Positions 56,102 to 59,313 of a DNA stretch of 64,000 bases are shown here, piece by piece (the first letter of the stretch is position 1; every line of letters starts with the position of its first letter). Both the position numbers and the translations under genes were made by a program. Under the pieces are notes generated by a model that worked only from the letters and a program-made list of their open reading frames with translations, was not told where the DNA came from and ran no database searches. This stretch comes from Aliiroseovarius halocynthiae. Its GTDB lineage: Bacteria; Pseudomonadota; Alphaproteobacteria; Rhodobacterales; Rhodobacteraceae. The stretch lies in contig NZ_ML660019.1 of the NCBI RefSeq assembly GCF_007004645.1, forward strand, positions 826,437-890,436, in the 5' to 3' direction.

Positions 56102-56144
56102 CAAAAAAACGGCGCCGCTCGGGAGGAGGTGAGCGACGCCGTTT
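56102..56144 (-). terminator. Cuckoo RNA hairpin 8, also the intrinsic terminator
   Basis: Outer stem AAACGGCG / CGCCGTTT (8 bp) and inner GCTC / GAGC (4 bp) with a 2x2 internal loop; loop motif at 56121-56129. On the minus strand the stem runs into T7 (A7 at 56103-56109 on plus), a full intrinsic terminator. It lies 20 bases past the uvrD stop, so it may also act on the convergent uvrD transcript. Confidence 0.85.
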
Positions 56145-56155
56145 CCTATGTGGTC

Positions 56156-56181
56156 GGACCTCTGGGAGGAGGGTGAGGCCC
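56156..56181 (-). ncRNA. Cuckoo RNA hairpin 7
   Basis: Stem CCTC / GAGG extended by GG / CC across an A-C mismatch; the weakest stem of the set. Loop motif at 56164-56172. Confidence 0.7.
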
Positions 56182-56193
56182 GGCGCTGTGACA

Positions 56194-56215
56194 TGGGTCG
56201 GGAGGAGGTGACCCA
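56194..56215 (-). ncRNA. Cuckoo RNA hairpin 6
   Basis: Stem TGGGTC / GACCCA, 6 bp, perfect. Loop motif at 56200-56208. Confidence 0.82.
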
Positions 56216-56228
56216 CATCGGATCGGCA

Positions 56229-56251
56229 CGTTCCTGGGAGGAGGTGGAACG
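56229..56251 (-). ncRNA. Cuckoo RNA hairpin 5
   Basis: Stem CGTTCC / GGAACG, 6 bp, perfect. Loop motif at 56236-56244. Confidence 0.82.
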
Positions 56252-56272
56252 CCCCGAAATTTGGGGGTGCGG

Positions 56273-56298
56273 CGATGTCAGGGAGGAGGAAGACATCG
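56273..56298 (-). ncRNA. Cuckoo RNA hairpin 4
   Basis: Stem CGATGTC / GACATCG, 7 bp, perfect. Loop motif at 56281-56289. Loop flanks are the same as in hairpin 3. Confidence 0.85.
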
Positions 56299-56309
56299 TC
56301 GCGGCCCAA

Positions 56310-56337
56310 GGACTGTCAGGGAGGAGGAAGACAGTCC
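56310..56337 (-). ncRNA. Cuckoo RNA hairpin 3
   Basis: Stem GGACTGTC / GACAGTCC, 8 bp, perfect. Loop motif at 56319-56327. Confidence 0.85.
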
Positions 56338-56352
56338 GAAGATTTTGGGCGA

Positions 56353-56379
56353 CGAGATCAGGGAGGAGGAGAGATCTCG
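56353..56379 (-). ncRNA. Cuckoo RNA hairpin 2
   Basis: Stem CGAGATC / GATCTCG, 7 bp. Loop motif at 56361-56369. Confidence 0.82.
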
Positions 56380-56390
56380 CCGCCATTCGT

Positions 56391-56422
56391 GTTCACCGCC
56401 AGGGAGGAGGAAGGCGGGGAAC
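56391..56422 (-). ncRNA. Cuckoo RNA hairpin 1 (first transcribed)
   Basis: Stem CCGCC / GGCGG with an outer GTTC / GAAC pair and one mismatch. Loop motif at 56402-56410. It begins 7 bases after the DUF1127 stop codon. Confidence 0.8.
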
Positions 56423-56428
56423 CGAAAC

Positions 56429-56644
56429 TCAGTTGCCGTAAACGGCCATGCGTGCGACCAAACGGATCGAGCTGCGGTTGATGCCCAGATCGTAAAGTTC
56501 GCGATCGCTCAGCGCGCTCAGCTCTTTCACAGTGTTGCGATAGGTCTGGCGGGTGGCGAAGTTTTCTTTCCAGCGCGCGATCGTTGCTACGAAGCGGTCG
56601 GACAGGCCAGCTTGGGCCAGGATGATTTCAGATGCGTGTGCCAT
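56429..56644 (-). CDS. DUF1127 protein, CcaF1-like leader gene of the cuckoo RNA array
   Basis: Protein of 71 aa with the DUF1127 C-terminal signature (KELSALSDRELYDLGINRSSI, about 40-60) after an amphipathic, basic N-terminal helix. In Rhodobacter sphaeroides a DUF1127 protein in the same place (CcaF1) binds RNA and affects processing of the CcsR sRNAs made from its own mRNA 3' region (established). The identical layout here predicts the same job. The stop is 7 bases from the first hairpin, so sRNAs must be released from the mRNA. A sigma-32-like promoter lies about 100 bases upstream. Confidence 0.88.
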   Translation of the reverse strand: MAHASEIILAQAGLSDRFVATIARWKENFATRQTYRNTVKELSALSDRELYDLGINRSSIRLVARMAVYGN

Positions 56645-57075
56645 TGCACTTTCTCACTTTCGGTCGCAGGTCTCTGCGGATTAAGGCCGGCCATCAGGCG
56701 GCCAAAAAATTCTGTTAGCGACAACATCGTCGCTGTGAGACAAAGATGGGGGTAATGCTGCACATGCACAATACCCCTAACAATCAAACCCGCCATGCGC
56801 TGTGCGCATAGGTGAGTGTGCCAATAAAATAGTCACAAATCCGTTACTTAGGCGGGTGCTGTGTGAAAATGCTGCAACGCAGAAATTAAGCTTAACCGGT
56901 GCCGCCAGGGAAATGTTAGCGTCATGCATAACTTGCTAAGGAGCGAGGCGGCTTGCCCAAAATTAGATCGGGGGCCGGTCGGCTATTGTCTTTCGTTGAT
57001 TCTCGCGCGGCGCTTTGCCTCTTGCGTCTGTGTGGAATCGCGCCAAGTAATGAGGTCAGGATCAAGGAGACTTAA
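56645..57075. other. Divergent intergenic region, DUF1127 / mrp
   Basis: No coding frame of protein character. It holds the heat-shock-type promoter candidate for the DUF1127 gene (minus) and should hold the mrp promoter (plus). A stretch GGCCGGCCATCAGGCGGCC near 56685-56703 can fold in the DUF1127 leader. Confidence 0.5.
56744..56771 (-). promoter_or_regulatory. Candidate RpoH (sigma-32 type) promoter for the DUF1127-cuckoo unit
   Basis: On the minus strand a TTGTGC (-35 like, 56766-56771) is followed after 14 bases by CCCCATCT (56744-56751), an exact match to the sigma-32 -10 consensus CCCCATnT. It lies about 100 bases upstream of the ATG. The CcsR unit of R. sphaeroides is driven by RpoHI/RpoHII (established), which supports this reading. 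The -35 match is partial. Confidence 0.5.
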
Positions 57076-58149: not shown

Positions 58150-58172
58150 TCCGCGTTGACATAATTACATGG

Positions 58173-58203
58173 ACGCCCGGCGCAATCACTGCGCTGGGCG
58201 TTT
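58173..58203 (+). terminator. Intrinsic terminator after mrp
   Basis: A 12-bp stem (58173-58184 with 58190-58201, one G-T pair) and 5-base loop ATCAC, followed by TTT. It lies 23 bases past the mrp stop. Confidence 0.78.
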
Positions 58204-58809
58204 GGATTCTGGGTTGATGTCGCGATTGGGAATTCATGGGTTCCGCACTGAACGCGCATGGGATCGTCGCAATTTACTAAGAGATCGTGACAGAAATTCG
58301 CCCTGCCTCCGCTGAAATTGCCCTGATTTGATTGTCGGAGAGAAAAATTTTGGATTTTATGGGAAATAGTAGTTCTGCGAGTGCATCACTATATCTTGTG
58401 GGTGTGGTATTTCCTTGCGCCACATTCCGTGATGTATTGAGTCAATATTCTGCAATTGCATCAAGCTTTCAATGTGTTCAGGGCCTGTTAGCGTATAGGG
58501 TGCCATAAAAAACTATTGCTTCCCATGATTTCCCGGGCTATCCCTGTATTCAAGATGAGGACGGGACAGAAAGGGGCGATAAGACCCCGAACGACACTCC
58601 CAAGTCAGGTTTCATGCAGGCCCCGCTTCATCGAACGAAAGAGATCCGGCGCGTACGCGAGCAGACATCCCCCCCAGGTGGCGCGCGCAGCTGGGCACCC
58701 GGAAACGGGACAGGCGGCGGATTGGTCAGTGGCAGCTAGATCAATTCGCCGTTTTTATTCCAGCCCTCGCTTGGGTTGGTGGGACAGTTGATTAAAGGGG
58801 GCCGCGCAA
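58204..58809. other. Long intergenic region upstream of mraZ
   Basis: About 600 bases without a convincing gene. The left half is AT-rich; the right half is GC-rich with small hairpins (for example GGGG / CCCC around 58575-58590). The RNase P core (GAGGAAAGTCCGGGC) was sought and not found. TGGG repeats near 58773-58784 (two copies, 8 bases apart) only loosely resemble MraZ boxes. It should contain the dcw promoter and a long leader. Confidence 0.4.
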
Positions 58810-59313
58810 GTGGCACGCAGGTTCAGAGGTGAAAGCCACCACAAGGTGGACACGAAGGGCAGGGTTTCAATCCCGGCCCTGTTTCGCCGTGTGCTTGAGG
58901 CCGGTGACCCCGATTGGACCGATGGTCTGAACCCCAATCTTGTTATTGTTTATGGTGATCATCGCCGTAATTATCTGGAAGCCTACACGATCGAGGCTAT
59001 CGACGAGGTTGACGACCAGATCGCACAGATGCCGCGCGGCTCGATGGAGCGTCGCATGCTGGAGCGTCTGTTCAACGGGCAATCTTTCCCCACGACTGTG
59101 GACGAAACGGGTCGATTGGTTCTGCCTGCCAAGCTGCGCCAAAAAATTGGCCTAGACAAAGAAGCGTTCTTTATTGCCACCGGCGACACATTCCAGATTT
59201 GGAAGCCCGAGACCTATGACGAGGTCGAGATTGCCAAGACCGAAGAATGGCTGGATGAGCAGCCAGAAGATTTTGACGTGCTGACCCTGTTGGGCGGCCA
59301 GGGGGAGCACTAA
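58810..59313 (+). CDS. mraZ: Transcriptional regulator MraZ
   Basis: Protein of 167 aa that binds the dcw promoter region and represses the cluster. Two SpoVT/AbrB-like half domains: [11 protein letters not shown] near residue 13 and [19 protein letters not shown] near residue 97. The GTG at 58810 sets the usual N terminus ([13 protein letters not shown]). It is followed by rsmH after one base. First gene of the division and cell wall cluster. Confidence 0.93.

Follow-up and report, generated by a model that had tools for sequence, protein, structure and literature searches.

An eight-hairpin array of the ar14/cuckoo RNA family behind a DUF1127 gene in Aliiroseovarius halocynthiae, and a bias of its candidate target sites toward solute-binding protein genes

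Background

On its minus strand, a 64,000-nucleotide stretch of the Aliiroseovarius halocynthiae genome (3.39 Mb; contig NZ_ML660019.1, positions 826,437 to 890,436; hereafter the window) carries a row of hairpins with one and the same C-rich loop directly behind a small DUF1127 gene. To which RNA family does this row belong, is its structure maintained, and what might its loops bind? An earlier note on this DNA had read it as an anti-Shine-Dalgarno "cuckoo" array laid out like the ccaF1-CcsR1-4 unit (CIN1) of R. sphaeroides, with twice as many hairpins. The cuckoo RNA family, reportedly treated by Reinkensmeier and Giegerich in 2015, combines a conserved loop with free stems, as the window array does. 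For the R. sphaeroides operon, a RpoHI/RpoHII promoter, cleavage by RNase E and flhR mRNA as a target have been reported (PMC10253847, PMC8307010; for RNase E cleavage of CcsR see also PMC7866481), while NfeR1, an ar14 RNA of Rhizobiales, reportedly uses its loops to silence ntrB and two transporter mRNAs (PMC10746234, PMC7143759).

Methods

Candidate target genes were collected as ORFs behind GGGAGGA start sites, with AAGGAGA start sites as control. In the A. halocynthiae genome the GGGAGGA places, two of which share one site, gave 37 ORFs of at least 80 aa; all 37 were scanned against Pfam and 34 had a Pfam family. For AAGGAGA, 50 loci of 112 places gave 38 ORFs of at least 80 aa, of which 36 were scanned and 34 had a family; the site in the window (C1:883500), L159 (whose ATG lies inside the DctP gene of L116) and L162 were left out. 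In G012, a congeneric species, 30 loci were taken out of 62 places; L171 (the gene of L170), L172 and L179 were left out, and 27 were scanned, all with a family. Two genomes that lack an array contributed 30 loci of 302 GGGAGGA places and 30 AAGGAGA loci, which were compared using phmmer only.

Results

Anatomy of the locus

Read 5' to 3', the minus strand has a promoter-like stretch, the DUF1127 gene and then eight hairpins (56422-56104; Table 1), with six bases between the DUF1127 stop codon and the first stem. Within the whole window the motif CCTCCTCCC has eight copies against 0.40 expected; every one of them is on the minus strand between 56121 and 56410, and eight copies were reached in none of 100 shuffles. 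As the earlier note had described, each of the identical loops sits on its own stem: hairpins 1-7 have stems of 8-12 pairs, with a single mismatch in three of these stems, and hairpin 8 has 17 pairs. The fold of the array has an energy of -151.5 kcal/mol (z = -12.4; 0/100 shuffles equally good), and all eight loops are predicted to be unpaired with a mean probability of at least 0.995. The terminal hairpin that the note had pointed out is hairpin 8, which runs directly into seven T and is probably the last anti-Shine-Dalgarno hairpin and an intrinsic terminator in one; a terminator scan, which accepts loops of 3-8 only, gave no match at the array.

Table 1 Features of the locus, with positions in the window
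Feature	Position	Strand	Basis
Palindrome CTGCGTTGCAG, candidate regulator site upstream of promoter	56872..56882	-	CTGC-N3-GCAG type
Sigma-32-like promoter: TTGTGC, 14 nt, CCCCATCT; wider motif TTGTGCA...GCAGCA	56744..56771	-	sequence
DUF1127 small protein gene, CcaF1-like, 71 aa	56429..56644	-	PF06568, E = 3.1e-10
Hairpin 1, first of pair 1	56391..56422	-	stem; CcsR1 model 56344-56428, 45.6 bits
Hairpin 2, second of pair 1	56348..56384	-	stem; same CcsR1 model match 56344-56428
Linker between pairs 1 and 2, A/T-rich, candidate RNase E site	56338..56347	-	CAAAATCTTC, 7/10 A/T
Hairpin 3	56310..56337	-	stem; both-side changes in 6/8 pairs
Hairpin 4	56269..56302	-	stem; both-side changes in 6/10 pairs; 99% of cells paired
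Linker between pairs 2 and 3, candidate RNase E site	56258..56268	-	ACCCCCAAATT, 6/11 A/T
Hairpin 5	56223..56257	-	stem; 80% of cells paired
Hairpin 6	56190..56219	-	stem; inside ar14 match 56105-56226 (hairpins 6-8)
Hairpin 7	56155..56182	-	stem; ar14 match; CcsR1 model 56104-56192, 34.7 bits
Hairpin 8 and T-run (probable terminator)	56104..56147	-	stem, sequence; helix 8 paired in 100% of cells, 20 genomes

The DUF1127 protein is 76-83% identical to its counterparts in four loci named Aliiroseovarius. Past the end of the array, and oriented toward it, lies a UvrD/PcrA-type helicase gene, and upstream of the DUF1127 gene, in the opposite orientation, a gene for a Mrp/NUBPL-type ATPase. The same genome has, as judged by eye, a second DUF1127-like small protein (L147; G000:C1:387694) away from the array locus. 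Elsewhere in the window, 58150-58810 is a long non-coding stretch before mraZ, with no Rfam match at E 0.1; the UpsM leader RNA is reported at the equivalent position in R. sphaeroides (PMC5089854).

Family membership

The Rfam model ar14 (RF02344) matches hairpins 6-8 with 68.7 bits, over its gathering cut-off of 58.8, which upholds the earlier assignment to the cuckoo/anti-Shine-Dalgarno RNAs; a second match (56305-56430) scores 55.1 bits, under the cut-off. Every loop contains an unpaired CCUCCUCCC, and the stems are variable yet paired. The covariance-model search proposed as a check in the note thus does score the hairpins, with ar14 over and CcsR1 (RF02791) below cut-off: the full-length CcsR1 model fits hairpins 1-2 and 7-8, both matches (Table 1) falling short of 65.3 bits. 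Because the CcsR1 cut-off is missed, we class the row not as a CcsR1 RNA but as an ar14/cuckoo array within an operon of the ccaF1-CcsR type. The layout itself, a short DUF1127 gene with CcsR-like hairpins directly behind it, is that of CIN1, as had been claimed.

The claim of twice as many hairpins as in R. sphaeroides was not supported. There, transcript RS0680a has two stem loops with the motif on each (PMC3927594 section 2.7), and RSs0680a-d are reported to have been renamed CcsR1-4 (PMC5036791). The Rfam CcsR1 model (83 positions) also has two hairpins with this loop on each, and since the model and RS0680a each show two, the four homologous CcsR RNAs should hold eight hairpins, as here, a number that derives from the Rfam model and the literature and not from the R. 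sphaeroides sequence. The abstract of a 2015 CcsR paper is said to agree with eight. The one predicted transcript in the window likewise has eight hairpins; cleavage between the pairs would leave two on each RNA.

Conservation within the genus

A three-loop pattern was matched in 20 of 21 genomes of the genus, the non-matching genome (G008) being 87% complete. By spacing, all 20 arrays are of the eight type; 19 have eight CTCCTCCC cores, and the remaining one (L015) has seven cores and one double-length gap, and eight hairpins under a looser count. When the 20 sequences were aligned with the window structure, 92.0% of 1570 cells were paired and both-side changes were present in 43/80 stem pairs, values that were each reached by 0/500 shuffles; one of five covariation measures (further pair types) was reached by 1/500. 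Pairing falls to 33-46% when one side is slid by 1-3 columns, a test that favours the window structure somewhat because this structure was derived from one of the aligned sequences. Pairing is least complete in hairpins 5 and 6 (80-81% of cells), and the loop stays CCUCCUCCC across the genus while the stems drift. We conclude that the structure of the array is under selection. The note had taken the differing stems within this one array as compensatory change, for which such hairpins, being paralogues, do not suffice alone; compensatory change as such is nevertheless real, being shown by the orthologues in 20 genomes and not by the array itself. L022 (G007) has the largest inter-hairpin insertion in the alignment, which adds ≈30 bases to the stretch that separates hairpin 2 from hairpin 3.

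Arrays across the order and class

Rough counts in 57 genomes of the order, a set that is not random (a long-array search supplied 35 of the 62 loci), gave between 2 and about 24 hairpins per array, with 31 arrays having more than eight, 8 having eight and 18 having fewer. Eight hairpins are hence not the large array that they had been taken for, and the window array is a new array of ordinary size in an already known RNA family of alphaproteobacteria. The counts depend on the script used (20, 24 and 23 for L060; 9, 17 and 20 for L061). L060 (G170:C1:347000-350200, minus strand), with 20-24 hairpins behind a DUF1127-like ORF, is the longest array seen and has signs of tandem duplication of multi-hairpin units. 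A DUF1127-like ORF is present upstream of 53/57 arrays, in 50 of them ending at most 22 nt from the first counted stem and in the remaining three 57, 144 and 234 nt from it; this layout test is partly circular because the profile was trained on 52 ORFs of these loci picked by a motif that we wrote, and the Pfam check of DUF1127 identity covers the window's protein only.

A long-span pattern, which the window array does not satisfy, was found in 64/390 genomes of the order (11/390 when read backwards) and the three-loop pattern in 37/81. In a class-wide set of 76 genomes, with a single genome for each family other than the window's, two close loops were present in five: the window's genome, another of its family, and three others with a single isolated loop pair each, of which two also score in the reversed control; this sample misses known carriers, as five Brucella loci each show three loops. 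A distant DNA search for the array on plasmids was without matches, and DUF1127 relatives are present in 207 plasmid records at E 0.01, 130 of them from Rhizobium.

How such arrays grow can be seen in L048 (G112, minus strand 1815-1897), with 14 hairpins in seven regular pairs and the best CcsR1 match (106.2 bits); from this score, it is probably a close R. sphaeroides relative with more than four CcsR units. Its stem flanks have an identity of 0.83-0.88 at even steps (0.88 two apart) and 0.60 at odd steps, and its loop spacing alternates between 37-39 and 65-76 nt, the longer distance separating neighbouring pairs, compared with 36-45 nt in the window array. In L061 the alternation is weaker (0.72 vs 0.57). 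The two-hairpin period in L048 and L061 therefore suggests that the growing unit is two hairpins where growth is recent. In the window array no two-hairpin period was detected in the stems (identity 0.52-0.59 at steps 1-6), and A/T content does not cleanly mark the borders between pairs: the linkers there are 7-11 nt long, that of hairpins 6/7 has 2/7 A/T, and the linkers inside pairs 1 and 4 have 4/6 and 4/7. The reading as four units thus rests on the relatives, i.e. by kinship the window array should consist of four two-hairpin units.

Promoter and upstream palindrome

Upstream of the DUF1127 gene lies TTGTGCA..TGCAGCA followed by CCCCAT-T, and TTGTGCANNNGCAGCA has its only exact match in the window at 56756-56771. 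The motif TTGTGCA-N1-4-GCAG is present upstream in 20/20 genus loci and in 46/53 other loci. With its 14-nt spacer, TTG...CCCCATCT resembles what we take to be the sigma-32 consensus, in line with the promoter type reported for ccaF1 (PMC10253847).

Further upstream, a palindrome of the form CTGC-N3-GCAG, with one transition allowed, is found at 19/20 genus loci and 51/53 others (strict form, 16/20 and 24/53); the background for the looser form is 26 matches in 96,327 nt, or 0.09 per 350 nt. Judged by eye, it starts 28-29 bp before TTGTGCA in 36/53 non-genus loci and 20-21 bp before it in 9, and in the genus it lies 110-112 bp before TTGTGCA in 16/20 loci, including the window's, and 29 bp in three. 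Its distance to the promoter is thus near-fixed in Rhodobacterales, with a shift of ≈80 bp in 16/20 genus loci. As to its regulator, PhaR might be guessed at, as might an LsrB/VtlR-like LysR protein by analogy with NfeR1, for which activation by LsrB is reported (PMC10746234).

Loop binding and candidate targets

The note had equated the loop with the anti-Shine-Dalgarno core of 16S rRNA. CCUCCU is indeed common to the loop and to what we take to be the 16S tail, but the perfect complement of the loop, GGGAGGAGG, is not a perfect Shine-Dalgarno sequence. The predicted duplex energies for the loop and for this assumed tail were -12.3 and -9.8 kcal/mol with GGGAGGA, -7.5 and -7.8 with AAGGAGA, and -9.9 and -16.5 with a perfect Shine-Dalgarno sequence; the assumed tail, as a 17-mer, had no match in the genome. 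Since the loop outbinds the assumed tail at GGGAGGA, this is a start-site type where the loop can win.

GGGAGGA is present 4-12 nt before ATG at 44 places in the A. halocynthiae genome, and the reversed pattern at 3. Solute-binding proteins, a class that we assigned from Pfam names, account for 15/34 Pfam-annotated GGGAGGA genes vs 2/34 AAGGAGA genes (Fisher p = 0.0005). They belong to SBP_bac_1, DctP, Peripla_BP_4, Peripla_BP_6 and NMT1_3, and the other GGGAGGA genes include AMP-binding acyl-CoA synthetases, enoyl-CoA hydratases, an acyl-CoA dehydrogenase, SoxA and a TRAP membrane part; the rest of the AAGGAGA genes include ribosomal proteins, a sigma-70 factor and housekeeping enzymes. The initial data had already drawn attention to the solute-binding class, which makes the later 14 sites of the same genome, 8 of which precede solute-binding proteins, and G012, with 10/27 (p = 0.003, compared with the A. 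halocynthiae AAGGAGA control), the fairer tests. This bias of GGGAGGA start sites toward solute-binding protein genes is a new result. Two GGGAGGA start sites 6 kb apart (L123, C1:1123082; L124, C1:1129137) precede two sulfur-oxidation genes, SoxA and a flavocytochrome c sulfide dehydrogenase-like gene, and G012 also has the SoxA site as a word match only.

In the two array-less genomes, solute-binding-like hits by phmmer were 2/22 for GGGAGGA ORFs (3 by eye) and 0/22 for AAGGAGA, and the same test gave 13/37 GGGAGGA ORFs in A. halocynthiae. The bias is thus weaker without an array, and part of it may therefore be unrelated to the array RNA. The possibility that the GGGAGGA sites really pair with AbcR was rejected, as far as RNAs fitting the ar15 model are concerned: no ar15 match in the A. 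halocynthiae genome was over the cut-off of 40, the best having 17.2 bits.

Discussion

We regard it as likely that the locus is a stress-induced operon of the CIN1/ccaF1-CcsR type whose loops silence GGGAGGA-type mRNAs for uptake and catabolism. Judging from the promoter motif and R. sphaeroides, a stress sigma factor would start one transcript at the heat-shock-type promoter; it would encode the DUF1127 protein and carry in its 3' region the RNA units 1-2, 3-4, 5-6 and 7-8, with hairpin 8 doubling as terminator. RNase E probably cuts the linkers between the hairpin pairs, and the DUF1127 protein may tune the maturation of the RNAs. The freed loops would then pair with GGGAGGA-type Shine-Dalgarno regions and block translation, as the pairing energies and the gene bias suggest. 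Because many candidate targets are enzymes of carbon use or solute-binding proteins that serve ABC and TRAP transporters, stress would lead, via the operon, to reduced catabolism and nutrient uptake.

With CIN1 (ccaF1 is RSP_6037), the window locus shares a 71-aa DUF1127 gene followed by CCUCCUCCC-loop hairpins, the sigma-32-like promoter motif, the end terminator and the expected hairpin count (4 RNAs x 2); the stems differ, and the CcsR1 matches stay under the cut-off. With ar14/NfeR1 it shares the loop, the match of hairpins 6-8 and transporter genes among the candidate targets, whereas NfeR1 is a three-hairpin RNA with a sigma-70 promoter of its own, and the available text on it mentions no DUF1127 gene (PMC10746234, PMC7143759). 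AbcR (ar15) and Caulobacter SisA-D are like the window loops in having anti-Shine-Dalgarno seeds, and AbcR is reported to repress transport and metabolic mRNAs and SisA many mRNAs, but unlike here no hairpin array is described in the available text (PMC10746234, PMC12559287). DUF1127 proteins are also reported to bind sensor kinases, and one of them, Salmonella YjiS, reportedly gave no sign of RNA binding (PMC12501420).

Could the loops instead act in bulk, as free anti-Shine-Dalgarno decoys that lower all translation from strong Shine-Dalgarno sites in proportion to hairpin number? Eight identical exposed loops would suit such a sponge, and so would the variation from 2 to about 24 hairpins in the order, which is expected if dose matters. 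We nevertheless consider it improbable, since the loop is no copy of the 16S tail, binds a perfect Shine-Dalgarno sequence worse and GGGAGGA better than the assumed tail does, and one gene class is over-represented behind GGGAGGA start sites. It is very unlikely that the hairpins mainly serve the DUF1127 mRNA as 3' stabilizer, terminator or protein-binding platform for self-control, with the free RNAs as by-products. The closeness of the array to a DUF1127-like ORF in 50/57 genomes would fit, as would the reported effect of R. sphaeroides CcaF1 on the maturation of its own transcript (PMC8307010); this leaves unexplained, however, why the CCUCCUCCC loop stays constant amid drifting stems, nor does it account for the report that the related NfeR1 silences mRNAs through its loops (PMC10746234).

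That the C-rich repeats are part of a protein or a simple repeat has a next to negligible probability: several ORFs do cross the array on both strands, but the four tested, two per strand, are without Pfam match, and the base-pair covariation in 20 genomes refutes such a reading. Copy number, fold z and the covariation shuffles rule out a chance origin of the array.

Beyond the silencing operon that we favour, a wider scheme for Rhodobacterales is tentative and, on balance, doubtful. It would have a start-site code in which GGGAGGA, bound better by the cuckoo loop than by the ribosome, marks a regulon of solute-binding proteins and carbon-use enzymes. The CIN1 array would be the common off-switch: how many two-hairpin units it has (about 1 to 12) would determine the dose, and the sigma-32-like promoter and the palindromic operator at a nearly fixed distance would control it.

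A literature search, which did not extend to the founding papers, returned no report of arrays beyond 2-4 hairpins. The locus adds a member to a studied family, and the family picture and the target list may matter more: arrays in the order, with eight hairpins here and up to ≈24 elsewhere, go far beyond the 2-4 hairpins given for the cuckoo motif (PMC4504443) and have in some genomes grown by two-hairpin units, the promoter motif and the palindrome are common across much of the order, and the GGGAGGA genes provide a testable list of targets for the uptake of dissolved nutrients.
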